In this document: one piece after another, positions 5,431 through 63,154 of the stretch
How positions within the stretch are numbered: the stretch's first letter is position 1
How the letters are laid out: each line of letters begins with the position of its first letter
Assembly (NCBI GenBank): GCA_017591395.1
Contig: WEDG01007661.1
Span: forward strand, 62,001-126,000
Length of the DNA: 64,000 nucleotides
Source: Schistocephalus solidus
Taxonomy: Eukaryota; Platyhelminthes; Cestoda; Diphyllobothriidea; Diphyllobothriidae
Direction of reading: 5' to 3'
Program-made: the position numbers and the translations under genes
Notes under the pieces: generated by a model
What the model was told of the DNA's origin: nothing
Databases searched by the model: none
The model's input: only the letters and a program-made list of their open reading frames with translations

Positions 5431-5609
5431 AGTCAGCCACTCGACACGCACAGCACATACATTGGGCCGACGGTGTGGTCTGGTGTAAGCGTCAGATTGA
5501 CAACCTTCCAAGCCACTGTTTCTAGAACCCGTGATATTCTCAGGTACATGATGATGATGGTAAGGGTGTTGTCTATATATTGGTGTAGGTAGAGTGCGCT
5601 GATGTAGCT

Positions 5610-12840: not shown

Positions 12841-14451
12841 GTGGTCACACCAAACTTAAGAAATGCAAACGAACACTACCTCGTGACGAAACCACGCTAA
12901 GAGGAGGCAGACTTACCAGCATCCCCCATCGAGTTGACGATTCGCAACGCCAGTGGCCCTTAAGTCCAACAAACATGCATCAAAGGGTCAAGACAGCGAG
13001 AGAGAACAAAAAGCGATCAGTCCAATGCCAACCAGTTTGGCCAGTCCTTTATATGTCTGAGCGATAGTTGGCATTAAACACTATCAGAACGGAGAGGTGA
13101 CGAAGCTCTTTGAATGTCGGCAATAATGTAAATCGATTCCGGTAGGCAAGTTCAATTTATCCGATTTTCAGCCAAGAGCTCTCATCTTCGAAAACGCGAG
13201 TATTTTGATTTAAAAAGTTCACTAATGCCGACATATTTTGGACACAGTCTGCTGCTTCACTTGTTCTGATGGTTTCCAAAATACCTACAACGGGCTTTCT
13301 TTGTGGTACATTTATACAGTCTCACATGTCACTATGTAGGGGGACTCCTGGTGTTAAAAACTTAATGCACAGGATTAATAAATTTAAAAAAGCACTTGTT
13401 ACCTGAATACTTGTTCAATAATCTCAAAAATACTCCTCACTGCGTAGTTTGTGAACGATATACTTTCCTACAAAATTCGCATATACCACTCAACATATGT
13501 GCATCCCTTCCAAAAATATTCCTATCAAAATTTCAATGCATATACTACTCTCTAGTGGCAGATTTTTTCTAATGTGGTTTACACAGGCGGCTGAAAATCG
13601 ATTCAATCAAGAACCGGTAGTTCACCATGTAGGCATTAACTTACAATTGTGTTCCACCCGAATCGGCTTTGTAACATCATTCCCCTTGTTCGGTTTATTT
13701 GGAGGTGCATAGAAAGCTGTTTCATCTATCCCTGAGAGCTGTTCTCCAGCCAGTAATATCCTTGCTGCATACCTAAAATCCACCATCGGTACAGCTGATT
13801 TTGTCCCAAGTGTGATTCTCGAGGAAATTTCTCTATCAGAGCTATTGAGCAATATTTAAGTTTTTTATGGTTGTTTATGTCCCTCTACTGTTATTTCAAA
13901 CAATTTTCTATTGAAAAATATTTGACGAAATATAAACATCGCGTGCGATTAAACTAATAGATCCAAGATATCTATGAAAGGATCTTACATTGGCCCTTAT
14001 GTCATTTTACGGAGAAAAAATCGCTCCTATTGGTGGCATCGGCAGGCAAATATAATCTGTAAAAATGGCGGAAAGCTACTAATCAGATTTTCATGCATTG
14101 GGTTTTACGATTTGAAGTGACCGATTTTGACGTCCAAATCTTAATCCGCATAAGGCTCTGCAAGAAAACTGTGTCAAACGAAATTAAAACCACATAAAAC
14201 CCTATATGCTTGTTCAAAAACAGAATCCTTTATAAAGCGAGGTTAAAACATTGTGCAGCCGAAAGATTCTTAAAAAAAGTAACTTTGACTGAAAAGTATG
14301 AGAGGCGATCGCTGGAACAGGACCTTTATTCACCCGACTTTTCGAGTTCTCATTGCACAGATGTCTCTGTGTCGCAAAAATGCGTTTAGTACGAAGCCCC
14401 AGTCAGGGCGGAACTGGTGACACGCGCGGCATTTTAGCCCAGCGAACGGTA
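12841..14451. other. no recognisable gene
   Basis: AT-rich with short ORFs only (for example 13622-13852 minus). No repeat or motif identified. Confidence 0.5.
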
Positions 14452-22105: not shown

Positions 22106-22198
22106 CAGAACCTGTTCATCGGGAAAGAACCGGAATCCGACATGATCATAGCCGTAGTCTAAAAGCTCGGTGGCCCTCGGCTAATAGATAAAATTATT

Positions 22199-23310
22199 AT
22201 GATATTCCAGAAGATTTGGCATCAAGCACAAATTCATCAGAATTTCAAGGACGCCGTCATTGTTCATTTCCACAAGCAGAAAGGAAACCAGCTATCAAGT
22301 GAAGACCACGGGGGCATCACGTTGTTCAACGTCGCCGGAAAACTTTTCACACGCATACACCTTCATTGTATTAACGGCCACCTAGAGCAGGGACAGTTCC
22401 TGGAAGGCCACTATGGATTCCGAAAACAACGTGTAACCGTCTAAATGACCTTCGCCGCCCGTCTGCTACAAAGGAAGTGTCAGGAGAGGCGAACCAACCC
22501 CTGTATTACCTTCTTATTTCTAAAGAAAGTCTTCGTGGGGTGAATTTCAATGGAATTTGGAAACCGTATAGCAATTCTGCTGTCCTGAGCGGCTCATGCT
22601 CATGGTGGCTCAGCTCCTGGACGGGATGATAGGGCGCGTCACGGACAACGTGGCAGTCTCCGAAACATTGGCGGCGAAAAAACAGAGTGAAACATGGCTG
22701 CATACTCGCACCTACCCTCTTCTGGCTCATGTTCCCTGCCATACTGATTTTTAACTCTACCATGATGATCAGCCTAGGATGCGCACTAACTACGGGACTG
22801 ACGGCCATTTTCTTAAAAGGCGGCGCACACAGGCCCCAACTGGCCTATCCACGACCACCGTCCACTATCTGCTCTTCGCGAACGACTGTGCACTCAATAC
22901 CGCAACAGAAGAGGACATGCAAAGGAGCATGGACCTCTTCACCGCCGGTTGCGCAAGCGTTGGACTGACCATCTACGACCAGCCAGGTCTTCGACTGGCT
23001 ACAAGCCGCCATGTGAAATCGTCACCAATCTGAAGATTTGCAAGGGCATCGTCTGGACCACGCTATTGTATGGTGCGGAAACCTGGACTGCCTACTCCAA
23101 CCAGGCCAGGGGCTGAAGCATTTCCATCTCAGCTGCCTCCATAGAGTACTAAAGCGGAGATGGCATAACAGAATGCCGGACAAGGAAATCCTGAAACTAA
23201 ACGGAATCCTCAGTATCTACCCCATGCTGAGGCACCTGCCACTGCGATGGGGCGGGCACTTGGTGTGGATGGACGACCAGTGGTTATGCAAACGACTCTT
23301 ATATTGAGAT
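22199..23310 (+). pseudogene. LINE reverse transcriptase with mutated catalytic motif
   Basis: NFKDAVIVHFHKQKGNQ and GITLFNVAGKLFTRIHLHCI lie at 22232-22370, and HLEQGQFLEGHYGFRKQR follows. Motif B remnant CILAPTLFWLMFPAIL is at 22697-22744. Motif C reads LLFANDCALN (22869-22898), so the first Asp of the FADD pair is Asn, which should abolish polymerase activity. The thumb region KHFHLSCLHRVLKRRWHNR and LNGILSIYPMLRHLPLRWGG spans 23110-23255. Motif A is not recognisable, and frame changes separate the blocks. Confidence 0.85.
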
Positions 23311-23439
23311 GTCCGGGCGTATGCTCGCCGATAAGGAAGCAAATCACACAGCTACAAGGGCAGTTTTGAAGAATTCTCTGAATTGACCGCAAATAAACCC
23401 CGAGAGCTGGGAGGACCTCGTCCAGGACTGACAGGCCTG

Positions 23440-24950
23440 AAGAAGAACAACGCAGACAGGCGCAACAATTTACGAAGCTAAGCAGCTTGCCGCTGTCAAA
23501 GCCAAAAGGGTGGCCCACAAGTCACAAACGCCATGGATTCACAACGCCAGTGCCCAACACCTTCCAATATGCACACGCTACTAATTATTATTCGGCGACC
23601 GAGTCGGCCTTATCGGGCATATCCGTACCGAATGCAGCAACAACCGGAAAATGCCACTGCTGCATTCACAAATGTCCCCTATCCACAAACCTGCCTTGAC
23701 CCTCACGGCGTCTACGGCAACGACCATTCCCCACCATCAGCGATCACACTTCTTATGCCCCGCCGCAGTCGAGCACCGTCACCACCATTCCTACCACAAT
23801 CTTTGCGATGACAACGACGGTGACGACTAACACCAACACAACCACGTCTCCCACGCCCACCATCGGTGAGATCACGTCTGACGCCCTGTCAACAACGACC
23901 ATCACCACGAGCACACATTGAGGGCTTTTGAAATTGCGCCAACATTTTTTCTGCTGTCCATTCGCATGTACATTTTCTTATATGTAAATCAGTTGGCCTA
24001 TGTCACCCATTATATAACGCTTAGTAACCATCTTTGTTTATTCGAACTACAGAAATGAGGTTATCAGAGCATGACGCTGGCAGCATTTTGAAGGAAGTCC
24101 AATTTGATCTACATTTTGAGTCATTTAAGGACGATTCTTCATGATGTCGATAGCTGCAGACTTCGACCATTCGTTCGTGATCTGCCGGGGTTATTTGGTT
24201 TGTGTGCCCGATCTTATTCACGGTGAATGGATGACTTTTATTGAAAAAATTGGAATTAAACTTTCAAAATAAAGCACACCTCTCACTCTGCTCTGTTAAT
24301 GATCCCATAGTCCCTCATTGCGGTCGCAAATTCATCTCAGGTATCAGACCCTTGTAAATCTACCGCACTGTGACCGGCGGACTAGTGTCAGGAGCCCCCG
24401 ACAAATAGTTGCCGCATTTCCCTCCACTTTCCACACTATCCACGCACATTCACTCGATGCATTGGCCTAGTTGGTCAAATGTACATCCACGAAAGTGGAA
24501 TTCACCGCGATAACGACACGCCAAGCACATGTCCGACAACCCCAACCCCACCCATTTCCAGCACTAACAAACCCCCATCCAAAAGCGCGGTCACTACTAG
24601 TAGCTTAATCGCCGCAACTGAGTATACAGTCCCCAAATATCCTGCCCTCATTGAAACCACACGTACACATCACACATCGGTCTGATGGGTCACTTGCGAA
24701 CTCATCGCACAGAGCTCGATGAACCAGTGTCAGGAGCACCAACATACACCCAACACACCCCCTCAATTTTCCACACTGTTCACGCACATGAGCCCATTAG
24801 GTCACAAGCGCTTCAGAAAAACCTGCAGTAAAACACTGCTGGTCATGAGAACTCACCATATGCCCCCTCCCCAGCACTTCATCAAAACTGATTACGGCCA
24901 GCATCACACAGCACATGTTGGCAAACGGCAGCTCTCACGTGAGAGGCCAG
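23440..24950 (+). pseudogene. LINE basic linker and C2H2 finger tail, decayed
   Basis: A basic linker (IYEAKQLAAVKAKRVAHKSQ, in mixed frames, 23468-23526) is followed by a remnant with FGDRVGLIGHI at about 23595. MYIHESGIHRDNDTPSTCP (24479) and MGHLRTHRTELDEPVSGAPT (24685-24745) repeat the finger-end and spacer words seen at 5770-6081. The cysteine halves of most fingers are lost. Confidence 0.65.
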
Positions 24951-30209: not shown

Positions 30210-30932
30210 GTGTTGCGGTAGGGGAGGTGACGGTCGATTTAGATGCGTGTAATGATCTTTCTCATAGCTGACCGTGGAAGATAGTTCACCACTACCCGAC
30301 CGTAGGTGAGAAGTTGGCTTTAAGGGCGGTGTGGGGGGAATGGGAGCGACAGAAGTAATGGAATTCATGGGCCAGTTTGTCAGAAGACCGGAATAGAAGT
30401 TTCCGGGAGGGAAAGCGTTGGGTGAGGCCTGTGTGAATGTTGACTGGGCGGTCGGGGGTTGTTGCTGCTGCTGTGGTGGTTGTGGTGGTGGTGGTGCTGA
30501 CAAAAATCGAGGACCACTGAGATGTGTCTGTGCAATGGGATGATAACAGCGATCGTATTCACCCGCCGTTAGGTGAGACTGCTTAAACTGACCATCTTTC
30601 TGTGCACTTCCGTCCCAACTGAAATCTGGATTAAGTAAGAGGTCCCCAGGAGTTCCACATAGTTCCATCAATGTGGAGTTGTCGCTTGTAAACTTTGCAT
30701 CAGATAAATGACAGAGTCTCTTCGGTATGCCTTGATCCGGTGGTGACTTTGTTGGGATGTACTTTGGTAGACCGAGCGATAGGAAGCGGTTGGAACGAAC
30801 TAGGTCCGCACCATTAGTGGCCATATCAAAGGGATTCAGAGGGCCAAAGTGCATGGATGCCAGCGAGTCAGGATTGCGCATGTGAAAGTTCGGTGTTGGT
30901 AAGGTAAGGAGTGGTGTTTCTGATAACCTTTG
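30024..30932 (-). CDS. Hox4/Dfd-like protein, C-terminal coding region
   Basis: Minus-strand frame open from 30932 down to the TAG at 30024-30026. From its first Met (30881) it gives 285 residues. It follows the homeobox immediately but in a different frame (see the adjoining entry). It is low-complexity and proline/serine/glutamine rich, as Hox C-terminal tails often are: [14 protein letters not shown] in the middle and a run of ten glutamines encoded by CAG repeats (30179-30208) near the end, followed by acidic [16 protein letters not shown]. No domain is recognised. [10 protein letters not shown] word and regular codon usage argue that it is truly coding. The C-terminus is CPVDK. How it is joined to the homeodomain is unresolved: sequence error, or a short intron at 30800-30927. 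Confidence 0.7.
30179..30208 (-). repeat. CAG repeat coding polyglutamine
   Basis: A near-perfect CTG run on the plus strand, read as CAG on the minus strand, inside the Hox C-terminal region. It codes for about ten glutamines and is likely to vary in length. Confidence 0.9.
30800..30927 (-). other. possible 128-nt intron or frame break in the Hox gene
   Basis: Removing the GT at 30927-30926 through the AG at 30801-30800 joins AAA-G to TT-CGT in frame. The donor (GTTATC) is weak and the 3' end lacks a clear pyrimidine tract. Alternatively an indel lies between 30836 and 30932, where both frames are open. Confidence 0.35.
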
Positions 30933-31422
30933 TTATTTCCCGGAAGACAGTGCTCCTTCTTCCACTTCATTCTACGGTTCTGAAACCAAATTTTTATTTG
31001 CCTTTCGGAGAGATTGAGCGTATGCGCAATTTCCAACCGTCGTTTACGAGTGAGGTACTTGTTATAGTGGAATTCCTTCTCCAACTCGAGGATCTGCTGT
31101 CTGGTGTACGCAGTTCTTGTACGCTTGGAGTCACCCGAGGAACCGCCGATATCCATGCCAAGGTCATCTGCCCCATTGTGCCCGTCCACACCACTAGCTG
31201 CATCACTATCATCGCTGCCTTGATGTGCTGATCCGATAGATCCGCACGCATTTCCGTCCGTCCCCTGCTTCTCGGAGTCCGAGAGTGATCTCCTGGAGTT
31301 GACTGACGACTGAACTTCATCATCCGTCCCTGATGCACGTTTTCGATTTTTGGCATTTTCACCTTTGTTTGCGCCCGCGGATCCGTGCCTCTTGGTTTTC
31401 ACAGGCGTTTGCGTCACAGAAC
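30928..31422 (-). CDS. Hox4/Deformed-type homeobox exon
   Basis: This exon encodes a 60-residue homeodomain (31129-30950) that starts [20 protein letters not shown]. Helix 3 holds [16 protein letters not shown], with Trp48, Phe49, Gln50, Asn51 and Arg53, the Antennapedia-class recognition set. [19 protein letters not shown] and the LPGNNK after the domain resemble Deformed/Hox4 (LPNTK) more than Hox3 or Hox5, so the paralogue call is Hox4-like. The ~100 residues before it are acidic and Ser/Gly rich. The exon opens at a good acceptor (TTTACCTTGCAG, AG at 31424-31423) in phase 1, so an upstream exon must supply the start codon and any YPWM hexapeptide; neither was found in the window. The protein would be a nuclear DNA-binding regulator of axial patterning. 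The frame runs on to 30836 but there loses continuity with the long C-terminal frame. Confidence 0.88.
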
Positions 31423-33270
31423 CTGCAAGGTAAATGAGGCCGTGATAAGCTGCTTGCCAGCTGGTAATCCTGAAAAGATCCGTTCATTTTTACTTCATGG
31501 TAATAATTTATTTGCCCCCGTGCCGATCGGGCGAGGAGCACAGTGAAATCCAGTTTGTTTATTACTGTGACGCAATAATTGCCTAAAATTTCTCCAGAAT
31601 TCGTTCGATTTAAGGCGAATGAAGATCACTTTGCTTGTAAAAAATATATAATATTTTGAGACTGAAGGTAGTAATTAAAATGGAATGGACACTAGTTTTT
31701 AACTCAAAAACTAGATTCAACCTTCGAGAAGGTGTTCAAACTCGTTATGGCCAAGCATATGCTCTGCACACCCAAAAATTTCGGTCGCAATGTTTGTCAT
31801 GCAATTTGTATCTTGCTGTGGAATAAGCTCTCTGGAGGCTGGGTTATGAGGCGGGGAGGGGAGTGGTTCCTGCTTTCGTGTCTTCCCGTTGGTGGATATT
31901 AGAGGCAGACATCTGTTGTGGGCAGAAACGAATCGGAAGGCTAAACTTTAAACCTGAGCCGAAAGGAGCAAAATTACGATAACCAAGGACGCATGCATTA
32001 TTGATGGGGGTTTGGCGAAGCATTTTACCAAAAAGCAATTCACCAGATCATAAAGATGTTGTTAATATTTGCTTATCGGAAGCTTCAACGCATACTGAGC
32101 GTTGACAGAGTACCACAGTGAGAAGCTAATACGTTGAACCGAGGGTTACTTCACCTGAGCAGGTTAATGGCGCCAGATGGCCTTCCCCAGTGAAATGAAA
32201 TTTAACTTGGATTATTGGGATGGACAGTATTTGCCTATAGGCCACGTGCCTATGTGGAAGTAATGTCTTTTCCTGCAAATCGACAGGCCCAGTCATCAAT
32301 GCAGTCACGACCTACCCAACTGCTGCTAATCCTGAGCCCATTTGGTGGCGACTCCGCGTCACTTTAACGAGATAACATTGTCGTGCTTGCGGCACAAAGG
32401 ATAAAAGAATGATTAACGAGCAACCACCGAGATGTGATGACTTGGTTACCGCTGACACTACATCTTAATCCAGTTGAGAAGTTATGCTGACTGGTAGCTT
32501 GGTGTAAATACTGTAAAAACGAAAATTAATTGCCGAAGACCTGACTGCAGGAAGCTATTTAACAGACGTGGAACTTTTCAACGGAAGCTGAATTTAAAGG
32601 TATGAGTAAAAGTATTAATTAGTGCGTTGAAATCCTGGAGTCCAGTGAAGATCACATACAATCTGGCCTACGTTTAAACGATTTCAGTGAACTATTATTT
32701 ATGTATTTAAATTTCATATCAATACCTGTTGTATTGTTTACTTACGACTTTGCCGAATCCATCTTTGGTTGACGATATGTTCAGTGCTTCCGGTGAATAA
32801 TCGTGAATAAAACCGAAGCAGAAAATAATAAAGACGAGAGTGCTTATTTCGAGTGGTTAACCCTTTGTAACCGTGATCAGCTTCGCAAACAAAAGACACG
32901 TGCCCCAGTTGGCAAGGGCAGAAAGGAATTATTTAATTACCCAAAGCCCATCTTCAGTTACTTAACTGCAATCTGACTTACACAGCGTACCATTCCATCA
33001 TTTTAAAGAGCATAGACGGGAGGTGAATCTTAACCTAAAACAGCATATATACCAAAGTAGATTTCCTCGAGTGAATTTATTTTTGAGACCTAGATCACAT
33101 TTGTTAGCCTCAGGTATGCACTTTGCTGCGCTGCAGTGAGGTCTTCGGCTTCTACTTCGCGAGAGTTTGGGCAAGTCTGCGACTGAGTACGTTCTGGAAT
33201 CAGTGATAGATAACTCTTAGTGGTGGAGGCAGATGGCGGTCTCTGTATACTAAGGATATGGGAACCCTTC
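31423..33270 (-). other. presumed intron upstream of the homeobox exon
   Basis: Begins at the acceptor with a pyrimidine-rich CCTCATTTACCTTGCAG (minus strand). No exon with a hexapeptide was seen here or further right. Small ORFs only. Confidence 0.55.
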
Positions 33271-33289: not shown

Positions 33290-34200
33290 AACAACATGAA
33301 GCTCTTAAACACTGTAAACCAAGCACATCCGTCGATCAAATTCACAGTGGAGATGGAAAGAGTAGGTTCACTCCCTTTCTTAGACGTCCTTCTAAGAGGA
33401 AGACCTGATGGCAGCATCCGAAGGAGCGTTTATCGAAGAAAACCTGGTCTGGGCAATATATGAACTTTAGCAGTTTCATACCTCTCCAACAGAAACGCAA
33501 TCTACTCCATTGCTTAACGCAAAGGGCCAGAAAAATTTGCATGGCAGATAGTATCGAGGAGGAGCTTGGGAAGATCCAGAACCTACTTCGAGAGAACGGA
33601 TACCCAGATCGGTTTATTACAAAGCATCTTGTCGCAAGACCAGTGAAACATGCCAAGGTTACTATGGAACAGAAAACTCTATTCATAGAAGTGCCCTTTC
33701 AAGGGGATGCGGCTAATGTTCTCCTGAAAATACGCCTTTACCAAGCCGTTACACAAACTTTCCCCGCAGCGAAACTTCAGATAGTTTTCTCAACCAACCC
33801 TCTTTTACGAGGTGAAGGCAAGGATAGGTTGTCGCCTCAGACCACCTCGATGTGCATTTACTCATTTAATTGCTCCTGTGGAGCAGATTATATTGGTCAC
33901 ACGAGTCAACGCTTATCCAAACGAATAAAAGAACACATCCAAGCATGGCTCAGCAAAGGGGAAGTCAAGAGCATAAAAAGTGCCATCCTTGCAAATATTG
34001 TTTATACCGGACATAGTGTGGAACCCAGCGAAGCTTTCCGTGTAATTTATAAGGTCCCACCAAACTACCCCAAGCCACTGAGTCAACGTCTACTAGCAGC
34101 AGCAGCAGAAGCGACTGCCATTAGGTTGAAGAAGCCGGTCTTGTGCGCACAAAAGAACCTCGTACAAGCTCCGCGCTTAGCTTGGCCAACGGCCGCTTAA
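33290..34200 (+). pseudogene. Penelope-like element, 3' part of RT and GIY-YIG endonuclease
   Basis: 33298-33460 reads LLNTVNQAHPSIKFTVEMER, LPFLDVLLRGRPDGSIRRSV and YRRKP, the end of a PLE reverse transcriptase. A single-base frameshift near 33450 leads into a 246-codon open frame (33460-34200): NFSSFIPLQQKRNL, RARKICMAD, IQNLLRENGYPDRFITKHL, then STNPLLRGEGKDRLS and SMCIYSFNCSCGADYIGHTS. The Y..(x)n..YIG spacing, the Arg of QRLSKRIKEH and a later Glu (AAAAEATAIRL) fit the GIY-YIG nuclease fold, with a Cys pair in NCSCG as in PLEs. The domain ends in a regular stop at 34198-34200, so the 3' end looks natural and the 5' end truncated. It lies within the presumed intron or upstream flank of the Hox gene, on the opposite strand. 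Confidence 0.88.
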
Positions 34201-37900: not shown

Positions 37901-38990
37901 CCTTCATAGCCCTCTTCCTACTCGTATTCCTTTTCATCCCTCGCCTTCTTGCCTATGCGCCACAAGCACACAGTGGCGCCCGTTATTGCCAAACTGTCGT
38001 CGCTCACGCTTCGCCGCACGGCGTCCGTTGTGCTTAATCGGTAGCATGCATGCGTGTTAGTATGTGCCCTCTCAAATAACCTTCGCTACTTTCGGTTTGG
38101 CATTTCTCTCGCATACAAAACCACACAAGCGCCTACTGCAAACAGAAAGGCAGTAGCGCATGTGGACAGGTTGTGTAAGGAGATACTACAGGAACTTGCG
38201 ACCACTATCTCGGTGGGTTACTCCAAACACGTGGAAGGCGTGAACTCCGTCAGGAGCTCAAACAACCCGTGCTATCTACGTTTCTCCTTAATTGGCGACT
38301 GCATTTCCAAATAACGATGACTTTCCTCGTCCTCTGACCACCGGCTCCTGTCCGTCTCTGAGGTATAGACAACATTAGAAAAATGAAAATTTGTTTGCGC
38401 GGGTTCTGCACGGTTGATCCCTAGTGCTCCATTTGCACACTTACGCACACGCAAACCTCCGGATTCCACCACTTAAGCTAATTAAAATAAACGCGGCCTC
38501 CCAAACCGACCTTCCATCAAGCCTTTCTGCGCGTGTGAGTAAATCTCTGCTTCTCGTGCCTACAAGTGCATACCCGATTTGAAAGACAAAATGCGAGATA
38601 GTTCGCGGTTTGGGAAACCTAACACAGAAGAGGCTTTATTTTATTAAAGTGGCCTAAACATAGATGAGTCAAACTGCAATATATTTTTGCTGATCATTTC
38701 GACTCAAGTTGACTGTACCTATCAAAGTGGGCTGGTGTTAGATGCTTTATGCAAAAGAAAATATTGCAATTAACCCGTATCTTCACTAAATAATTTACAT
38801 GAATTGAAAGCAAGGCTCAAGTTTTACTGTTACTGCTGGCAATATTGCTACGAAAACGTTCGAAAAACAAGTCCACGTTCTCTCATAACAGATCTGGAAG
38901 TAAGGTAATATTTAAAAAATAGTACGAGATGTACGAGATGCAAGATGTAAAAGCAGCTACTTAGAATAAACCTCCTTAGTAAACATTGGA
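37901..38990. other. no recognisable gene
   Basis: Mixed, then AT-rich. No motif identified. Confidence 0.5.
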
Positions 38991-38992
38991 AG

Positions 38993-39010
38993 ATATATAT
39001 ATATATATAT
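38993..39010. repeat. (TA)n tract
   Basis: Short dinucleotide run 30 bp before the hammerhead-like motif. Confidence 0.9.
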
Positions 39011-39037
39011 CTGAAAGTCAAGACCAGCAGAACCACA

Positions 39038-39081
39038 GAACTCTGATGATGGAAACGAGGGGGTTTCCGAAACGTCAGTCC
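39038..39081 (+). ncRNA. hammerhead ribozyme-like motif at PLE end (best dispersed copy)
   Basis: Stem I 5' strand GAACT (39038-39042), intact core CTGATGA (39043-39049), a T, six-pair stem II GGAAAC/GTTTCC with a GAGGGG-type loop, then GAA (39069-39071) and ACGT as a loopless two-pair stem III. The GTC cleavage triplet ends at 39076, and the stem I 3' strand AGTCC pairs with one mismatch. The extra T before stem II recurs in related copies. Such a short stem III would need a dimer to be stable. Confidence 0.65.
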
Positions 39082-39142
39082 AAATACATTCCGGTCCATG
39101 AACTCGTCCCTTCTTCTTCGTCTTCTTCGGGGGATGATGAGC

Positions 39143-39146
<4 letters not shown>

Positions 39147-39198
<52 letters not shown>
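39147..39198. repeat. (TA)n microsatellite
   Basis: About 26 uninterrupted TA units, directly before the GIY-YIG coding region. The truncation point of the PLE is inside or at the edge of this tract. Confidence 0.97.
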
Positions 39199-39200
<2 letters not shown>

Positions 39201-39908
39201 ATGGGGATCGGCATCGCCCACCGGCCGGAGTCAACCATTCGACATCTGGTTATGAGGCCTAAGGCCCCCCTGCCCCGAGGTGAAACCACAAACGTCATCT
39301 ATCGGGTTCAATGCAATTCCTGCGCAGTCAACTACATTGGAGAAACCGGGAAACGTCTGCAAACCCGGGTCGGAGAACACATGAGGGCGGTAAGAAGAAT
39401 GGACCCGCTGTCTTTGGTGGCGGACCATTGCGCAGACTCTGGACACACGTTTGCCTTCCAGAATGCTGAAATTCTTGGTCGGGGAAGTGACCGCGTGGCA
39501 AGGGAAACCATCGAGGCTTGGCACACGGGAACAAACCCTCATAAATCGTTGTGTGACGCTTCCTACGGCCTACCAAGCCTCCGGACGCAGCTCAATGATC
39601 GAAAGAGCCAACGTGAACATGGGCCTAACGTGCATCCGAACATGGGTGAGTCCATGGCGGACACGCACGCAATTGCAACACAACCCAGACCCGACGAAGG
39701 AACAGTTATCGCCTCGGCCAGCTCAACCACTTATCCGGCAGGGGCGAATACACACGGAGGTGCGATCGCAACCAAGATTAACAGCCTGGGGCGGCAGCTT
39801 CGGTCGATGAGGGTACTGACGACTACTGCCAACGCGCGAACTCCGGCCCCCGACCAGATTGAGAACCAGTCATCACCGCCCTCCCCCAGTCCACCACGGA
39901 CTCAGTGA
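39201..39908 (+). pseudogene. Penelope-like GIY-YIG endonuclease domain, 5'-truncated ORF
   Basis: A 235-codon open frame ending in TGA at 39906-39908. It opens with GIGIAHRPESTIRHLVMRPK and PLPRGETTNVIYRVQCN, the linker also found in the decayed 15-kb element, then CNSCAVNYIGETGKRLQTR (GIY-YIG with the Cys pair and the conserved Arg) and EHMRAVRRMDPLSLVADHC, SGHTFAFQNAEILGR and RETIEAWH with the late catalytic-type Glu. The remaining ~100 residues are hydrophilic and unrecognised. The RT domain is missing, so the first ATG near the TA tract is probably not a natural start. The domain itself looks undamaged and the copy is the youngest PLE in the window. Confidence 0.85.
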
Positions 39909-40087
39909 ACAGGCAAAGGATGATCGCCAAGAATGAAACACCACCATGCTCATCAAGCAGCAAGATGACTGAGAATCTCCACCCCCAACCCGGCCCCTCC
40001 TCTACGCAAATTCAAAAACCTTAGTAATCCCGTATTAGCCGAAATGTTACCACCTATAAATACTGTGAGGCGCGGTACAAAAATTTA

Positions 40088-40128
40088 CCTCCGACGATGA
40101 AATCTTGTTTGATTTTGAAACTTCAGGA
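40088..40128 (+). ncRNA. hammerhead-like motif at PLE 3' end, one core change
   Basis: Stem I CCT/AGG (40088-40090 with 40125-40127), core CCGACGA (U4 changed to C), stem II GAAATC/GATTTT, then GAAACTTC. It is followed by ACAATAAAACC and a GTGATCGCC word also present after the copies at 46.9 and 59.6 kb. Probably inactive. Confidence 0.5.
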
Positions 40129-40165
40129 CAATAAAACCATGGTTCCCGTGATCGCCTCTTCTTCT

Positions 40166-40182
40166 CATATATATATATATAT
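40166..40182. repeat. (AT)n tract between PLE end and ~354-bp array
   Basis: Short dinucleotide run. The first array monomer starts at its right edge. Confidence 0.9.
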
Positions 40183-40413
40183 GGGGTAAATAATTTCTGA
40201 AATTATTAAGTGCAGGACATGGAGTCATGTGCTTCGGACATGACTTTTTAGGGTCACACCCGAAATTTCAATGAACATTTGGGTCGAAGACAATCAACCA
40301 CTGTGGAATAACCACGTAATGCCCATTCTACAAACAAGTAGTACTACAAGTAGTATGAATCTTATATGGCAAAGACGTTATACCGTACTTCCGACATAGA
40401 TACTAGCTAAAAG

Positions 40414-40485
40414 CCCAGACACGTGTTTCGCCGATGTTTCTGCTGCTGTGTGACACAGCAACGAGGGGTTCGGCTCCTCAGTGGG
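40414..40485 (-). ncRNA. hammerhead ribozyme-like block, array 1 monomer 1 (intact)
   Basis: Read on the minus strand from 40485: CCCA, CTGAGGA, GCCGA...TCGGC, GAA, ACACGTGT, C, TGGG. All core and stem positions are as in array 2. Confidence 0.7.
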
Positions 40486-40765
40486 TCCCCCAGCGTTCTC
40501 TATGCGGTTTCTGGTATATGGACTCCAGAGAATAATCGGGTAAATAATTTCTGAAATTATTAAGTGCAGGACATGGAGTCATGTGCTTCGGACATGACTT
40601 TTTAGGGTCAGACTCGAAATTTCAATGAATATTTTGGCCGAAGTCAATCAACCACTGGAAAAACCACGTAATTCCCATTCTACAAACAAGTAGTACTACA
40701 AGTAGTATTAAATGTATGTGGCAAAGATGGTATATCGTACTCCCGACATAGGTACCAGCTAAAAG

Positions 40766-40837
40766 CCCAGACACGTGTTTCGACGATGTTTCTGCTGCTG
40801 TCAGACGCAGCAACAAGGGGTTCGGCTCCTTAGTGGG
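40766..40837 (-). ncRNA. hammerhead-like block, array 1 monomer 2 (decayed)
   Basis: The core reads CTAAGGA (G5 changed to A), and the closing strand of stem II is TCGTC in place of TCGGC, breaking a pair. Expected inactive. Confidence 0.6.
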
Positions 40838-41119
40838 TCCCCCAGCGTTTCCAATGTGGTTTCTGGTATATGGACACCAGAGAATAATCGAGGAAATAAT
40901 TTATGAAATTATTAAATGCAGGACATGGAATCAGGTGATCCGGACATGACTTTTTAGGGTTAGACCCGAAATTTCAATGAAAATCTGGGTCGAAGTCAAT
41001 CCACCACTGTGTAATAACCACGTAATGCCCATTTTACAGACAAGTAGCGCTAAAAGTAGTATGACTCTTTTATGGGACATATATTATACCGTACTTCCAA
41101 CATAGGTACTAGCTAAAAG

Positions 41120-41191
41120 CCCAGACACGTGTTTTGCCGATGTTTCTGCTGCTGTGTGACGCAGCAACGAGGGGTTCGGCTCCTCAGTGGG
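41120..41191 (-). ncRNA. hammerhead-like block, array 1 monomer 3 (decayed)
   Basis: The CTGAGGA core and the stems are kept, but the GAAA element reads AAAA (G12 changed to A), an essential position. Expected inactive. Confidence 0.6.
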
Positions 41192-41473
41192 TCCCCCAGC
41201 GTTCTCTCTGCGGTTTGTGGTACATGGACTCCAGAGAATAAGCAAGGAAATAATTTCTGAAATTATTAAGTGCAGGACATGGAGTCAGATGATTCGGACA
41301 TGACTTTTTAGGGTCAGACCCGAAATTTCAATGAACCTTTGGGTCGAAGACAATCAACCACTATGGAATAACCACGTAATGCCCATTCTAAAAACAAGTA
41401 GTACTACAAGTAGTATTAAATGTATGTGGCAAAGATGGTATATCGTACTCCCGACATAGGTACCAGCTAAAAG

Positions 41474-41545
41474 CCCAGACACGTGTTTCGCCGATGTTTC
41501 TGCTGCTGCCAGACGCAGCAACAAGGGGTTCGGATCCTCAGTGGG
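41474..41545 (-). ncRNA. hammerhead-like block, array 1 monomer 4 (stem II altered)
   Basis: The core is kept, but stem II begins TCCGA in place of GCCGA, losing the pair next to the core. Confidence 0.6.
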
Positions 41546-41823
41546 TCCCCCAGCGTTCCTTATGCGGTTTCTGGTATATGGACACCAGAGAATAATTGGG
41601 GGAATAATTTATGAAATTATTTAATGAAGGACATGGAATCAGGTGATCCGGACATGACTTTTTAGGGTTAGACCCGAAATTTCAATGAACATCTGGGTTG
41701 AAGACAATCAACCACTGTGTAATAACCACGTAATGCCCATTCTACATACTAGTAGTACTACAAGTAGTATGAAATGTATTTGGCAAAGATGGTATACCAT
41801 ACTCCCGACATAGGTACTAGCTA

Positions 41824-43030
41824 TATATATAGCTGCATAGTCAGACCTGTGCTTTAGCGTAGAGTGGATCCTTTCGGGCGCAACTAAGCCGATCCCTTCA
41901 GGTGCTGCAGTTTGTCTCCTGGTAATTAATAATGAGTTCCGCAGTCATGGAACCAAACACCTCTTCGAAGAACCACCAACCATCACCCATCTCGTGCTTG
42001 CACCTCCTTTCGGTCGACCGACCGAAATTCCAACGACAACGCTACCTCCCCTTCCTTGCCTCTCAGACGTCAGTCTAAGGGGAACTCGAGCGCCGGTCTA
42101 CACGTGTCTGACAGTCCTGCCATCCGCCCCTTTGACCTCGCATCGTACAGCAAACAGCCCCAGTGACCACAGCAAGATCGCCGCGTTGCCATTGTGGCAA
42201 CACGCTCACCGTTACCCACCCACCCTCCCCCTTCAGCCGTGCACGCACCTTGGCGAAGTTCAACAACTATAGGCTAATTGACTACATGAATGCACCTCTT
42301 CCTGTCACCTCACTTCTTAGACGTGCTCGATCCATGTTTTCTACTTCACGCCTCTGCTCCCACTCCACTAGGTTTCCCGTTCGGCAGATGCCTACACAAG
42401 GACGTGCCCAAAAGCACTAGATCCGTACTGTTCATGAAGGAGGTCCTCCAGTTGTACTGACAGAAAAGACCACTGTAGGCACAGTAAGCACAAATTATCA
42501 GTTACTAAGGTCAGCCAAGTTAATCATTAAGCTTGATAACTTAACACGAAATATCGATAAATTACACAAAATCGAGTTGTTAAACTGCACTGTCATATGG
42601 TAGCACCAACTTTCACCTGAGGAAGATATCGTACGCCGCTTACGCCATTCCTGCCAATCGCTTTATACAAATAGTAAATAATGTAATCGTCATTTGGGCA
42701 AACGTGCATTTTGGTTCACCAAAACTCAAGCTTGCTATCCACCTTACAAGATATTGAACTCGTATTGCACTGTAAACTTCATGCAAACTAATTTTCGGAC
42801 TCTGTTTTCTATCGTGTTGGGTACATATGTATGTTTGTGTCGGTTAATGTTAACGCCGAAAAGGAGCCAACAAACGGGACAGTGCATGTTTCAATGGTGT
42901 CATTCAGGAAATCGAGGTGATGCAGGCCAACTAGATCGCTGTGAGCGCGGTACGCTATAAAGCAAGACTCGGCAAAGTCCTTTTTAAAGTTTTCTTTTAG
43001 ATGACAATGTAAACTGTAAAAAGATCGCTA
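41824..43030. other. no recognisable gene
   Basis: A short TATATATA, then mixed sequence. CACCTGAGGAAGATATCG at 42614 resembles the start of the hammerhead-like motif at 43838 but has no GAAA partner. Confidence 0.45.
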
Positions 43031-57200: not shown

Positions 57201-59620
57201 TTTTGTCCATCAAGGATTATCCACGCATGAATAGGAGGATTCCCAGAAGATATACACAGCCTCAAATTTATGGGAAGACGTTCACAGTGTCGGTGCCCAA
57301 AATGCCTTTAGTGCCCTATGTATTTAAAGTTTTGATGTCAGAAAAATTTGATCTAGAGCCTTCATCCGTTAGGATTTATTGACCAACGCAATCCAGAATT
57401 TGTCAACAGGCCCATTGATTACTTCTTAGAGTGAGACAGAACAGTCTTCGCCTCTACGGCTGGGACTAACAGTGTTCCTGTCAAAACAAAGGTTTTCTTT
57501 ATAGGAAAAACTAACGCCCTCTAGCTTCAAAGAACTGCAATTTCAGTGCTAAGCTGTGAAAGAGCAAAATATGTTGAAAAATTTCGTCAGGACAAGGAAG
57601 TATGGAAGGAGATTCGAAGCAAACGATGAAAGGGAGATGGAGCCTCGAATCCTCAATGCTCCATACACGAGGCCCGCGTGGGATTTCATGTATTTGTCTG
57701 CGCCAGGCTTTCCGTCCCCTATATTGATTGCGTAAAAGACTGCGCTTTCTAATGTCAGACAGGAGGTTCTGCTTATATTGACTTTGTTATTTTCAAAATC
57801 CTAAATGACTTGAAGATATAGTAAGAGGGAATACCAGTTGTTTAAACCCTGAAATATTATTTCGGACGGAATAAAGCTCCTTTCTCTCGGACCTTTAATA
57901 GATGCGCCTGCTTGTAACCCAATTATCAACGAAGTTCTAGATTTGTCGAAAATGCGGATCTAGACACGCACGCCAAGCTGGTGAGTGGACGCCATCTGAT
58001 GTCATTTGGTTATTCAGACGAGAACCGGTAGTGAGCTGCTCACACTGGACAAGGTTATTCTTCAGAAGAGTACTCCTCCAGAATATTCCTTCTCTCAATT
58101 ATTTCCTGAGACTGGCATTTTTGCTTGTATCGGCAAAATTACTCCAGGCTGTCAGAGGGCTCCCGCTAACTTGTTCACGACCTAGGGCGTGAAATGGAGT
58201 AAAATAAGAAGACCATCTGCTATTGAAGTCACGAGCATCATTACTACCACTGAAAGTGTGCAGCAATACGGAATATGTTCTCATAGTTACGTGTCGAGCC
58301 ATAAAAATAGCAAAGATATGAGGGCTTTTGTAGACTTGTGTGTGTAAAATACATCAGATATCACTGCTGGTTGCTAATCAAAGTCACTACCGACACAAAT
58401 GTATGAAACACAATTTCGTCGGAATATCTGAGTGAAGGTCTATAGGGATGCTTGGAAAGAACAAAGAAGAGGATACATTGAGTAAACTTGTGCGCATGTC
58501 TAAGTGCATAGGGCTACGCATGGGAGTCCTCTCGTCAGATTCAACAAAGACCATCGCTACGCAGAAGCGGTGATGGTTTGCACTTTGAATGGATTAAAGT
58601 GAGGGCGATTTACTGCTTACAGACTTCATTCAATTCCAACCTTCAACATGTTCTAGTGCAAGACGAGGGCTGGAATCCGAAGCTGAGCTTGGACACAATG
58701 ACCAACCATGCATTCGCCCTCGTCTGATGCGCGCCACCCACCGCGTGCCTATCAAACGATGCCCTCCGGACTTCGCTCGTACTTTCGTCGGCTAACTTAA
58801 TATGACGTGGATTTTAGACTGCATGCAACAGGAAAGCCTGACCGTGAGGACCGAGTCTCTGTATTTGCGTCGATTGAAAAGGTTTCCCACAGACGGGGTA
58901 GATCCTCAGGATGTGTTCAAAGGAAGGGGTCAGAAAAGCCTGAATGATGGCTGCTCGTTCAAATACTTTAACTGTATTCATTATTTATAAGTGGGACGTG
59001 CAGTAACATTCACGAAAATTTGCAATTTCGTACGCGGGCAAAGCCAAGAAACGTGGTCAGTCGTTATTATCACTTCCGATTTATTGCGGGAAATGGTAGA
59101 ATATATCAGCTATTCCGCTTTAATTGTGCTTTTAGTATAGTATCCAGAGGTGGGTCGCAATCGAAAGATACACCTAATAGGGGTTCAGATATACATGACA
59201 AGCGACAATAAGTGAGGTCAGGGTTTCATCAGAAATGAAAGCACGGACTCAAAATAGTATTTTTGAGATAGTAATATAGTTGGGACGAGGTATTTATTAA
59301 TCCTACGTTTCGAACTCTCATGTAGACTCTCGTTCGAAATTGCACGAGCGCTAGTTCGCTGAGAGATGGAAGGATAAGCTTTCCTTGGTAGCCGCCTACG
59401 CGTCCTCGCCAGGGCACGGCTTAGACTTCGAGTGGGTGCGAATATTGCGCCAGTCGGAATGCCGAAATTCACGCCTGCTGCCAAAAGTGTGGCACTCAAC
59501 CGAGAACGCAATTAATAGCTATATCGATCTGCCAGCTGCTTAGCAGACCCTGTGTGAACAAATCAATGAGGCAGCCGAAGATCATACCCGATAGAGGTGA
59601 GTTAAATATGCATTGCATTG
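51286..59620. other. 8-kb AT-rich stretch without recognised gene
   Basis: Only short ORFs (up to about 100 codons), none recognised. A 28-bp unit is tandemly duplicated at 55221-55276 (GTAAACGTGGAGATAGTCC followed by AAAATTT). It may belong to a Hox intron, the upstream flank or an intergenic region; I cannot tell. Confidence 0.5.
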
Positions 59621-59629
59621 TACAATCTC

Positions 59630-59705
59630 TTATTCCTTGATGATGGGCTCGCGGGAGAGTTCGAAGCGTCAGATGAATAAAAGTCTGGTCCCAGAAATCG
59701 CCTTG
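59630..59705 (+). ncRNA. hammerhead-like PLE terminal motif with tail, degenerate
   Basis: TTGATGA (59637-59643), T, stem II GGGCTC/GAGTTC with wobbles, then GAAGCGTC, AGATGAATAAAAGTC and an AATCGCC word. Two core changes (C3 and A15). Confidence 0.4.
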
Positions 59706-59732
59706 CCGAATTCTATCCAATTGCCTGGGCCT

Positions 59733-59737
<5 letters not shown>

Positions 59738-59780
<43 letters not shown>
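59738..59780. repeat. (TA)n microsatellite
   Basis: About 21 TA units between the hammerhead-like motif and the SINE-like unit. Confidence 0.97.
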
Positions 59781-59784
<4 letters not shown>

Positions 59785-59920
59785 AGTGTGTGGCTCACCG
59801 ATCTGCTTAAGGAACATTTACGTTCCGTTGTGCCCTGGAATTCAGACTAGGGCCCTCACAGGCGGTCGCATAGCGACGTGTGGCATATGTTGATAATGTG
59901 GAACCGACAAAGACAAGGGA

Positions 59921-59959
59921 GACCGGAATGGCCATTTCTGGCTTATTAGCCGTCATCAG
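59921..59959 (-). ncRNA. hammerhead-like core in SINE-like unit, copy 1
   Basis: Minus strand: CTGATGA, C, GGCT-AATA-AGCC hairpin, A, GAAATGGCCATTCCGGTC. Core words are right, but C and A face each other at the first stem II pair and no flanking stem I is seen. Copy 2 at 60226-60264 has GAAACGG in place of GAAATGG. Confidence 0.4.
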
Positions 59960-59984
59960 CCAGTCATACCCAATCCCAAGTGTG

Positions 59985-60056
59985 GCACACCTGGGATTTG
60001 AACCCGTGACCTTTGGTAATTGAGTCGAATGCTCTACCATTGAGCCACGGGCTCGC
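59985..60056 (-). ncRNA. tRNA-like Pol III promoter region of SINE
   Basis: The minus strand gives a box A-like TGGCTCAATGGTAGAGCA and a box B GGGTTCAAATCCC. Acceptor and anticodon stems do not pair well, so it is tRNA-derived and not a functional tRNA gene. Confidence 0.55.
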
Positions 60057-60225
60057 TATTTTGTCGGTTGCGATCATGAATATGATGATAGTGTGTGGCT
60101 CACCGATCTGCTTAAGGAACATGTATGTTCCGTTGTGCCTTAGAACTTAGACTAGAGCCCTCACAGGTGGTCGCATAGCGACGTGTAGCATATGTTGATA
60201 ATGTGGAACCGACAAAGACAAGGGA

Positions 60226-60264
60226 GACCGGAATTGCCGTTTCTGGCTTATTAGCCGTCATCAG
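60226..60264 (-). ncRNA. hammerhead-like core in SINE-like unit, copy 2
   Basis: As in copy 1, with GAAACGGCAATTCCGGTC. A stem III of AC..GT plus GG..CC with one bulged G is possible. Confidence 0.4.
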
Positions 60265-60416
60265 CCAGTCATACCCAATCCCAAGTGTGGCACCTCCTAA
60301 AAAGTCATGTCCGAAGCACCTGACTCCATGTCCTGCACTTAATAATTTCAGAAATTATTTACCCGATTATTCTCTGGATTCCATATACCAGAAACCGCAT
60401 AGAGAACGCTGGGGGA

Positions 60417-60488
60417 CCCACTGAGGAGCCGAACCCCTCGTTGCTGTGTCACACAGCAGCAGAAACATCGGCGAAACACGTGTCTGGG
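60417..60488 (+). ncRNA. hammerhead ribozyme, array 2 monomer 1
   Basis: Stem I CCCA (60417-60420)/TGGG (60485-60488). Core CTGAGGA (60421-60427). Stem II closed by GCCGA (60428-60432)/TCGGC (60468-60472) and containing an inner hairpin GCTGTG-TCA-CACAGC. GAA (60473-60475). Stem III palindrome ACACGTGT (60476-60483). C17 at 60484, cleavage expected after it. The nucleotides that define the hammerhead core are all present. Stem III has no loop, so the active form would be a dimer or a multimeric transcript. Confidence 0.8.
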
Positions 60489-60772
60489 CTTTTAGCTAGT
60501 ATCAATGTCGGAAGTACGGTATAATGTCTTTGCCATATAAGATTCATACTACTTGTAGTACTACTTGTTTGTAGAATGGGCATTACGTGGTTATTCCACA
60601 GTGGTTGATTGTCTTCGACCCAAATGTTCATTGAAATTTCGGATGTGACCCTTAAAAAAGTCATGTCCGAATCACCTGACTCCATGTCCTGCACTTAATA
60701 ATTTCAGAAATTATTTACCCGATTATTCTCTGGAGTCCATATACCAGAAACCGCATAGAGAACGCTGGGGGA

Positions 60773-60844
60773 CCCACTGAGGAGCCGAACCCCTCCTTGC
60801 TGTGTCACACAGCAGCAGAAACATCGGCGAAACACGTGTCTGGG
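60773..60844 (+). ncRNA. hammerhead ribozyme, array 2 monomer 2
   Basis: Identical layout to monomer 1. One change inside stem II (CCTC-C in place of CCTC-G). Expected cleavage after 60840. Confidence 0.8.
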
Positions 60845-61127
60845 CTTTTAGCTAGTATCAATGTCGGAAGTACGGTATAACGTCTTTGCCATATAAGATT
60901 CATACTACTTGTAGTACTACTTGTTTGTAGAATGGGCATTACGTGGTTATTCCACAGTGGTTGATTGTCTTCGACCCAAATGTTCATTGAAATTTCGGGA
61001 TGTGACCCTTAAAAGTCATGTCCGAATCACCTGACTCCATGTCCTGCACTTAATAATTTCAGAAATTATTTACCCGATTATTCTCTGGAGTCCATATACC
61101 AGAAACCGCATAGAGAACGCTGGGGGA

Positions 61128-61199
61128 CCCACTGAGGAGCCGAACCCCTCGTTGCTGTGTCCCACAGCAGCAGAAACATCGGCGAAACACGTGTCTGGG
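61128..61199 (+). ncRNA. hammerhead ribozyme, array 2 monomer 3
   Basis: Intact core and stems. Inner hairpin loop TCC in place of TCA. Expected cleavage after 61195. Confidence 0.8.
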
Positions 61200-61481
61200 C
61201 TTTTAGCTAGTATCAATGTCGGAAGTACGGTATAACGTCTTTGCCATATAAGATTCATACTACTTGTAGTACTACTTGTTTGTAGAATGGGCATTACGTG
61301 GTTATTCCACAGTGGTTGATTGTCTTCGACCCAAATGTTCATTGAAATTTCGGGATGTGACCCTTAAAAGTCATGTCCGAATCACCTGACTCCATGTCCT
61401 GCACTTAATAATTTCAGAAATTATTTACCCGATTATTCTCTGGAGTCCATATACCAGAAACCGCATAGAGAACGCTGGGGA

Positions 61482-61553
61482 CCCACTGAGGAGCCGAACC
61501 CCTCGTTGCTGTGTCACACAGCAGCAGAAACATCGGCGAAACACGTGTCTGGG
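61482..61553 (+). ncRNA. hammerhead ribozyme, array 2 monomer 4
   Basis: Intact core and stems; loop TCA; one fewer G just before the block. Expected cleavage after 61549. Confidence 0.8.
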
Positions 61554-61835
61554 CTTTTAGCTAGTATCAATGTCGGAAGTACGGTATAACGTCTTTGCCA
61601 TATAAGATTCATACTACTTGTAGTACTACTTGTTTGTAGAATGGGCATTACGTGGTTATTCCACAGTGGTTGATTGTCTTCGACCCAAATGTTCATTGAA
61701 ATTTCGGATGTGACCCTTAAAAGTCATGTCCGAATCACCTGACTCCATGTCCTGCACTTAATAATTTCAGAAATTATTTACCCGATTATTCTCTGGAGTC
61801 CATATACCAGAAACCGCATAGAGAACGCTGGGGGA

Positions 61836-61907
61836 CCCACTGAGGAGCCGAACCCCTCGTTGCTGTGTCCCACAGCAGCAGAAACATCGGCGAAACACGT
61901 GTCTGGG
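61836..61907 (+). ncRNA. hammerhead ribozyme, array 2 monomer 5
   Basis: Intact core and stems; loop TCC. Expected cleavage after 61903. Confidence 0.8.
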
Positions 61908-62188
61908 CTTTTAGCTAGTATCAATGTCGGAAGTACGGTATAACGTCTTTGCCATATAAGATTCATACTACTTGTAGTACTACTTGTTTGTAGAATGGGC
62001 ATTACGTGGTTATTCCACAGTGGTTGATTGTCTTCGACCCAAATGTTCATTGAAATTTCGGATGTGACCCTTAAAAGTCATGTCCGAATCACCTAACTCC
62101 ATGTCCTGCACTTAATAATTTCAGAAATTATTTACCCGATTATTCTCTGGAGTCCATATACCAGAAACCGCATAGAGAACGCTGGGGA

Positions 62189-62260
62189 CCCACTGAGGAG
62201 CCGAACCCCTCGTTGCTGTGTCCCACAGCAGCAGAAACATCGGCGAAACACGTGTCTGGG
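62189..62260 (+). ncRNA. hammerhead ribozyme, array 2 monomer 6
   Basis: Intact core and stems; loop TCC; one fewer G before the block. Expected cleavage after 62256. Confidence 0.8.
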
Positions 62261-62490
62261 CTTTTAGCTAGTATCAATGTCGGAAGTACGGTATAACGTC
62301 TTTGCCATATAAGATTCATACTACTTGTAGTACTACTTGTTTGTAGAATGGGCATTACGTGGTTATTCCACAGTGGTTGATTGTCTTCGACCCAAATGTT
62401 CATTGAAATTTCGGGTCTGACCCTAAAAAGTCATGTCCGAATCACCTGACTCCATGTCCTGCACTTAATAATTTCAGAAATTATTTACCC

Positions 62491-62494
62491 TATA

Positions 62495-62558
<64 letters not shown>
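62491..62558. repeat. (TA)n microsatellite at array 2 end
   Basis: About 34 units with one TG interruption near 62500. It abuts the array at the same monomer position (TTTACCC) as the (AT)n beside array 1. Confidence 0.97.
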
Positions 62559-62561
<3 letters not shown>

Positions 62562-63154
62562 TGGAGGGCAAAAACCTCAGTTTTAACTGAACAATCGCAT
62601 AATGTCCATGATATGTAATCAATTTCGAGACATGTTTCTGGAGATCCCCTGCCATTGTATACCGCACCTTCGAGGCTTTTAGTTACCCGGTATTTGCCCC
62701 AACATTTACACTCTGGTTTTCTGGATCAAATGCCAGAGTTAAGATGATATTACAGGGAATACACCGAACTTATTTATTTATACAGCAGACAATCAGCGAA
62801 ATATATCTGGTCTATTCGATTATAGAGGTAAGTCATTTGCCATGTAAAATAATTGCTAGATATCAGGAGCACAGAAGGTTTCCGGCACTAATTATGTGAC
62901 TCTGGTAAAATACCTACGCAAAAGGGAGCTTAAGTTACTATGCGTCCAGTCAGGATTAATTACATTGTCTCAACTGAGAAAGTCAAAAATTTATTAATTA
63001 GATAGGATGGTAAACTTGGTGCATGTTTCGGATCCCTGAACTACAAAAATGCAGTGCATTTTGGACACTTTGTCATAAATGTCTTAGGAAGTCTGTCCAT
63101 ATGCATAGAGAATACAAGCTATTTTGAAAAGTTAACCAACGAAGAACGGGGTGC
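62559..63154. other. no recognisable gene
   Basis: AT-rich. GGATCCGAAACATG on the minus strand near 63030 is faintly like a PLE terminal motif, without a core. Confidence 0.45.

Follow-up and report, generated by a model that had tools for sequence, protein, structure and literature searches.

The window, the whole 64-kb stretch of Schistocephalus solidus DNA that was analysed, contains two tandem arrays of one repeat family. Array 2 lies on the forward strand, and its features are the following (window positions throughout):

60296..62490, + strand: array 2, 6.2 head-to-tail units (unit length 353-356 bp); six type I hammerheads, all intact; ends 3' in ...TTTACCC
60405..60500, + strand: hammerhead 1, predicted cut after 60484
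60761..60856, + strand: hammerhead 2, predicted cut after 60840
61116..61211, + strand: hammerhead 3, predicted cut after 61195
61471..61565, + strand: hammerhead 4, predicted cut after 61549
61824..61919, + strand: hammerhead 5, predicted cut after 61903
62178..62272, + strand: hammerhead 6, predicted cut after 62256
62467..62490, + strand: 3' end of array 2, a perfect 8-bp hairpin with arms AATAATTT and AAATTATT (62467-62485), then TACCC

Tandem Repeats Finder (TRF) gave a period of 354, 6.2 copies and 98% matches for 60296-62490. Phased at the hammerhead cut, array 2 consisted of a 5' partial unit, five whole units (356, 355, 354, 354 and 353 nt) and a 3' partial unit. The whole units had a pairwise identity of 98.6-100% (gaps excluded), and the unit had a GC content of 44%. 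An earlier note, made from the sequence of this locus, had described near-identical monomers of ~354 bp in tandem, and these figures agree with it. The same note had proposed recent amplification or homogenisation. The high identity speaks for this. However, at two G-run indel sites the five whole units showed every one of the four possible combinations, and an A/C change recurred among them. With polymorphisms reassorted in this way, there are simpler explanations than one rolling-circle pass round a single circle: the pattern fits better with slippage that happened repeatedly, with a multimeric template of mixed units or with gene conversion at a later time.

The hammerhead blocks of array 2 all carried CTGAGGA, GAAA and GTC, together with pairing stems (6/6). 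A pattern search that covered the window on both strands returned exactly seven motifs, the six of array 2 and one of array 1, and the same pattern was found in none of 30 order-1 Markov windows of equal length. The type I core (CUGANGA, GAAA, NUH, three stems, stem I open) was thus present in 6/6 hammerheads of array 2 and in 1/4 of array 1, and the six intact cores of the earlier note were recovered. With Rfam at gathering thresholds, the whole window gave no match. In E-value mode, 60200-62600 gave a full-model Hammerhead_1 match for each of the six copies, at 22.8 bits and E 0.021 (computed over 4227 families), compared with a curated cut-off of 34 bits. The check by covariance model suggested in the note therefore succeeded in model coverage and fell short in score. 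The low score is associated with a long insert in stem II, which has 5 bp by the core, an internal loop and then a 9-bp helix. We still call the fold a hammerhead, because the cut-off is a curator's score and not a property of the molecule.

When the proposed structure was applied to the hammerhead units, 96.8% of the cells paired, against 33-42% when it was slid by one to three columns. The ten units are near-identical, so that covariation among them was uninformative (one compensatory change, reached by 189 of 500 shuffles). Isolated blocks were mildly more stable than shuffled ones (z -0.83, -1.42 and -1.98 for three stretches), and the centroid fold was a hammerhead with stems I and II. 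The best single-copy fold paired core bases in place of the 2-bp stem III; at -30.1 kcal/mol, the full single-copy hammerhead was 1.8 kcal/mol less stable than this best fold (-31.9 kcal/mol). The stem III sequence, ACACGUGU, is self-complementary, a short palindrome as claimed before. An unconstrained co-fold of two copies gave a dimeric hammerhead with an 8-bp stem III (-75.3 vs 2 × -31.9 kcal/mol), and these folds predict that the hammerheads may work as dimers via the palindromic stem III. More speculatively, the GGGG run of stem I might pair with the CCCC run of loop II, a duplex of -8.1 kcal/mol; in the predicted fold, the GGGG run is mostly paired with UUUU. None of 100 shuffles matched the stability of one 354-nt unit folded as a circle (z -2.8).

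A model built from ten hammerheads (R1) re-found those ten only. A 19-mer of the hammerhead had no match in viral contigs. Its five matches in bacterial and archaeal genome contigs extended over 19-23 bases and no longer, and were taken as chance.

The second array, which looks older, lies on the opposite strand and is more diverged; it was absent from the earlier note, as were the (AT)n borders and the common 3' end described below:

40183..41823, - strand: array 1, same family as array 2, 4.6 units, (TA)5 at the 5' end, 3' end ...TTTACCCC
40402..40497, - strand: intact hammerhead of array 1, predicted cut at 40418
40754..41558, - strand: span of three damaged hammerheads
40754-40850, - strand: damaged hammerhead, core CTAAGGA
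41108-41204, - strand: damaged hammerhead, AAAA in place of GAAA
41462-41558, - strand: damaged hammerhead, first pair of stem II broken

One of its four hammerheads was therefore intact, and this was the only array 1 hammerhead listed by Rfam at E 10 in 38300-42300. Between the first three units and the whole units of array 2, identity was ~88-92%. The last ~422 bases were ~98% identical to array 2, and diagnostic sites switched from old to young between alignment columns ~143 and ~187. Array 1 is thus a mosaic of diverged and near-array-2 sequence. The young sequence looks as if it had been added at the 3' end. A common 5' boundary is suggested by the start of array 2 at column ~167 and of the young part of array 1 at ~143-187, a coincidence with a high probability of chance. 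Apart from its young 3' part, array 1 showed an alternating ~708-bp pattern of older units.

Metazoan non-LTR retrozymes are recognised by tandem units of ~150-450 bp that each carry a type I hammerhead, and by the absence of coding capacity. Units of this kind were found here. None of the window's 27 stop-to-stop open reading frames (ORFs) of at least 120 aa lay inside 60296-62490 or 40183-41823, so that both arrays, judged on ORFs of this length, were non-coding. Unit length, tandem layout, type I hammerhead, weak palindromic stem III, low divergence and lack of ORFs of at least 120 aa together bear out the retrozyme-like anatomy of the earlier note.

The two arrays had the same 3' end. Both stopped after TTTACCC, at one alignment column, 234 nt 3' of the predicted cut (n=2), and in both (AT)n followed directly. 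The junction of array 1 had one extra C compared with that of array 2. The outer flanks and 5' ends of the two arrays were unlike. We infer that the terminal segment of array 2 (62467..62490) is where reverse transcription started. The 16 positions of the hairpin arms were invariant, as opposed to 80 variable positions among the 354 of the unit (hypergeometric chance 0.015, ignoring the relatedness of the copies); this count used 10 of 12 rows, leaving out the two 3'-partial ones. In the literature surveyed, mostly titles and the beginnings of abstracts with subscription journals largely outside, no report of a fixed retrozyme 3' end was found.

Could the arrays be an ordinary satellite, grown and homogenised by unequal crossing-over or reinsertion of circular DNA, with the hammerhead a relic that has no role in spread? 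The high identity and reassorted polymorphisms of array 2, the alternating older pattern and mosaic of array 1, and the damage to 3/4 of the array 1 hammerheads would all suit such a history. The 6/6 intact cores of array 2, an identical 3' base at two loci with unlike flanks, and the occurrence of two short opposite-strand arrays in place of one long block do not, and we regard it as improbable. Hardly better is the prospect that DNA recombination carried array 1 sequence to the site of array 2, or supplied both arrays from one source locus, which would make the common 3' end one event that was copied. The ~98% identity between the last ~422 bases of array 1 and array 2 is in keeping with this, and the (AT)n tracts could recombine. 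However, the sequences past (AT)n and past the 5' ends were unlike by eye, a self-BLAST of the window at E 1e-5 found no match between the loci outside the arrays and (AT)n, and the extra C sits at one junction only; seeding of this kind therefore appears quite unlikely.

The (AT)n tracts were themselves unevenly placed:

62491..62558: (TA)n tract adjoining the 3' end of array 2, interrupted once close to its beginning and perfect from 62501 on
59736..59781: (AT)23 tract, beyond the SINE-like block as seen from array 2
40167..40182: (AT)8 tract, between the 3' ends of array 1 and of Penelope-like element (PLE) remnant B
39146..39198: (AT)26 tract, between PLE remnants A and B
38993..39010: (AT)9 tract, before PLE remnant A

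These were the only five perfect (AT)n tracts of at least 12 bp in the 64-kb window. All five lay at, or at most 10 bases from, the ends of arrays, the SINE-like block or presumed PLE fragments; one sat 10 bases away and the others at the ends. The chance of this placement was 6.4e-07 for both array ends lying beside (AT)n and 0.001 for the closeness of the tracts to PLE tails, figures that are post hoc and non-independent because the thresholds were set after the data had been seen and the (AT)n may have been made by insertion. The tracts could, in other words, be insertion products. AT repeats stand on both sides of array 1, one of them being (TA)5, and on both sides of the block formed by the SINE-like repeat and array 2; at these two loci, such a repeat tract is indistinguishable from a target-site duplication.

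Upstream of array 2 lies a repeat that resembles a SINE:

59782..60295, - strand: SINE-like repeat, two tandem copies at 305-bp spacing, the array-side copy 5'-truncated

The 5' end of this block was joined to the 5' end of array 2, and its 3' end adjoined (AT)23. A tRNA-like stretch within it (59991-60047) scored 22.2 bits with Rfam, for a cut-off of 29. The repeat also has a degenerate CTGATGA...GAAAC...GTC stretch, which we take to be reminiscent of the Schistosoma hammerhead SINEs. It was rejected as a hammerhead, as its stems are imperfect and no Rfam hammerhead row appeared up to E 10 in 59700-60320. The other sub-cut-off Rfam rows fell mostly on (AT)n, with mir-1814, SNORD69, Plastid-ycf2 and SNORA38 among those off it; all except the tRNA were discarded.

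Several fragments in the window are presumed to be Penelope-like elements:

39011..39145, + strand: presumed PLE remnant A, a truncated copy between (AT)9 and (AT)26, with a minimal hammerhead motif at 39043
39199..40166, + strand: presumed PLE remnant B, flanked by (AT)n at both ends; its GIY-YIG-like ORF runs to 39908, and a degenerate motif like a minimal hammerhead stands at 40093
59301..59735, + strand: presumed PLE remnant C, ending at (AT)23; 59301-59570 is a degenerate protein remnant, and 59639 has a motif like a minimal hammerhead
46909 (+ strand) and 21574 (- strand): further presumed PLE tails with a minimal hammerhead signature, without (AT)n

Array 1 stood tail to tail with remnant B across (AT)8, and array 2 was separated from remnant C by (AT)23 and the SINE-like block. 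The remnants are truncated and not active copies.

The tails were sought with the signature CTGATGATGG...GAAACGTC, which gave 22 rows at up to two mismatches. Five were kept (39045, 40093, 59639 and 46909 on the + strand, 21574 on the - strand): four with zero or one mismatch, and that of remnant B, which has two mismatches and a flank that aligned with A at a score of 43 (maximum of 38 in 100 shuffles). The remaining 17 rows, all with two mismatches and one of them inside the SINE-like block, were dropped. Among the five tails, 96.7% of the cells of stem II paired. For stems I and II together, the value was 91.1%, compared with 74.6% in shuffles, and none of 500 shuffles reached the covariation score. 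Selecting the tails by a common sequence does not itself create compensatory changes. One of the five tails, that of A, had an intact hammerhead core. In the motif of these tails, one extra base preceded stem II. Neither Rfam at E 10 (38300-42300) nor the pattern scan of the window returned a hammerhead in tails A and B. (AT)n adjoined three of the five tails, at the varying distances of 69, 42 and 65 nt from the hammerhead cut, and was missing from the other two. No resemblance was seen between the ends of the PLE tails and the retrozyme end.

The protein evidence for PLEs consists of GIY-YIG-like ORFs. The ORF of remnant B scored 14.5 bits (E 0.044) and that at 33409-34200 scored 17.6 bits (E 0.0049), both below the Pfam cut-off of 22.6, and neither had a family match at E 0.001. 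They matched each other over the GIY-YIG stretch (E 2e-08), and beyond the Pfam scores we presume a motif resemblance to GIY-YIG endonucleases. The predicted structures of two GIY-YIG-like pieces had a mean pLDDT of 41 and were set aside. A second family of GIY-YIG-like ORFs comprises 33409-34200 (+ strand) and a diverged copy at 2659-3187 (- strand; tblastn 4.9e-39), with no (AT)n of at least 12 bp near either. ORF-related remnants at 12565-12924 and 16474-16637 were likewise without (AT)n.

The family shares features with known retrozymes. Like the metazoan non-LTR retrozymes described in PMC7229834, where platyhelminths are named among the holders of such repeats, it has a type I hammerhead, tandem units (~170-400 bp in that source), a GC content below 50% and a self-paired unit. 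Unlike them, array 2 has a long stem II with an extra 9-bp hairpin, which explains the Rfam score below cut-off, and a common 3' end against (AT)n; no such end is described in the available text of that paper. The hammerhead HHR_Amex1 of the amphibian retrozyme and newt satellite, as presented in the same source, shares the weak stem III, the palindromic tetraloop and a ~330-350-bp unit. It works as a dimer, as the array 2 hammerhead is predicted to; its stem II layout differs (compared by anatomy). The Schistosoma W elements, from their description in the accessible part of PMC8490949, are also flatworm satellites, with functionally supported hammerheads in some families and mobile-looking copies. 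The available part of PMC12274263 has nothing on hammerheads. What we have here is an animal-type retrozyme family whose stem II is unusual and whose stem III is of the dimer kind; such elements are already known.

How animal retrozymes move is less settled. PLEs are named in PMC7229834 only as a strong candidate for their mobilisation, and a 2020 review (PMC7761336) states, in the text available, that retrozyme repeats show no motif that reveals the mobilising enzyme. PLEs with minimal hammerheads (PMC11167929, PMC7761336) are described as having an AT-rich target, reverse transcription that begins internally on the 3' side of the hammerhead, and partial tandem copies, all as proposed here; array 2 differs from them in lacking a long ORF and in its three-stem hammerhead. 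According to the accessible text of PMC11167929, a purified Penelope protein of lizard origin cuts both strands of AT-rich DNA in vitro and is able to extend both of them as well. Reverse transcription starts internally, at an AC-rich stem-loop 3' of the hammerhead that is non-homologous to the target, and genomic Penelope copies end at this internal start site. Hammerhead cleavage was dispensable for insertion in vitro, so that an uncut multimeric transcript would be as good a template as a circle.

We consider it probable, with moderate confidence, that array 2 is an animal-type (non-LTR) retrozyme that was spread by PLE machinery starting reverse transcription internally. The tandem locus would be transcribed. 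Neighbouring hammerheads would pair by the palindromic stem III, as the fold predictions have it, and as dimers would cleave the RNA to ~354-nt units, which a host ligase may circularise, by analogy with known retrozymes. A PLE protein would nick an AT-rich site, often (AT)n at a PLE 3' end, to judge from the positions of the arrays. Reverse transcription would then begin inside the RNA at ACCC, one base past the 8-bp hairpin and 234 nt downstream of the ribozyme cut, the common end being seen at two loci. Copying of several units of circular or uncut multimeric RNA would produce a new tandem array, its 3' end fixed and its 5' end variable.

The obvious other candidate for the mobilising enzyme is a LINE of the RTE or CR1 type, with target-primed copying and a microsatellite-like 3' tail as in SINEs. 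LINE copying normally begins at the 3' end of the RNA. From a LINE, one would therefore expect the copies to end at the ribozyme cut or at the transcript end, not at a fixed internal base, and no (AT)n of at least 12 bp lay near the two LINE remnants noticed in the window. That such remnants of LINE reverse transcriptases are present at all counts in its favour, as does the SINE-like repeat, which is fused to array 2 and has (AT)n at its own end too. According to the available text of PMC8166898, RTE-BovB, CR1 and Penelope have similar abundances in Sparganum proliferum and Spirometra erinaceieuropaei, which would add to this case if the genome analysed here is comparable. Mobilisation by a LINE seems unlikely to us. 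We prefer the PLE machinery because the fixed 3' end is internal, as in Penelope copies, whereas a LINE acting on ribozyme-cut RNA should end at the cut. The link to PLEs, which the earlier note had mentioned, has thus gained positional and junction evidence in the form of (AT)n and the common internal 3' end; against this stand an array number of two, weak GIY-YIG scores and PLE motifs without an Rfam match.

A broader idea, which we put forward tentatively and regard as rather doubtful, is that the hammerhead-bearing non-coding RNAs of this genome parasitise one PLE machinery. The retrozyme would hold the internal start (hairpin and ACCC), and the PLE enzyme would have joined SINE-like and retrozyme RNAs at one (AT)n break, resulting in a 5'-to-5' composite (59736-62558) with both 3' ends on (AT)n.

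The fixed internal 3' end at (AT)n, in a position like that of the presumed PLE tails, can be counted as a signature wherever a genome contains retrozymes. It also makes the question of the retrozyme mobiliser testable in vitro with the existing purified Penelope protein.

Other features of the window were recorded as well. The LINE remnants lie at ~6.3-8.2 kb (7001-7897, - strand) and ~22.1-23.7 kb (22152-23656, + strand) and are 70-71% alike; Pfam identified RVT_1 in the first (7001-7897, - strand; E 1.1e-13). Diverged repeated ORFs with zinc-finger-like spacing occur at 5433-6135 (- strand), with one Pfam match of 20.6 bits, below the cut-off of 27. A homeodomain ORF is located at 30839-31483 (- strand; Pfam E 6.9e-24).
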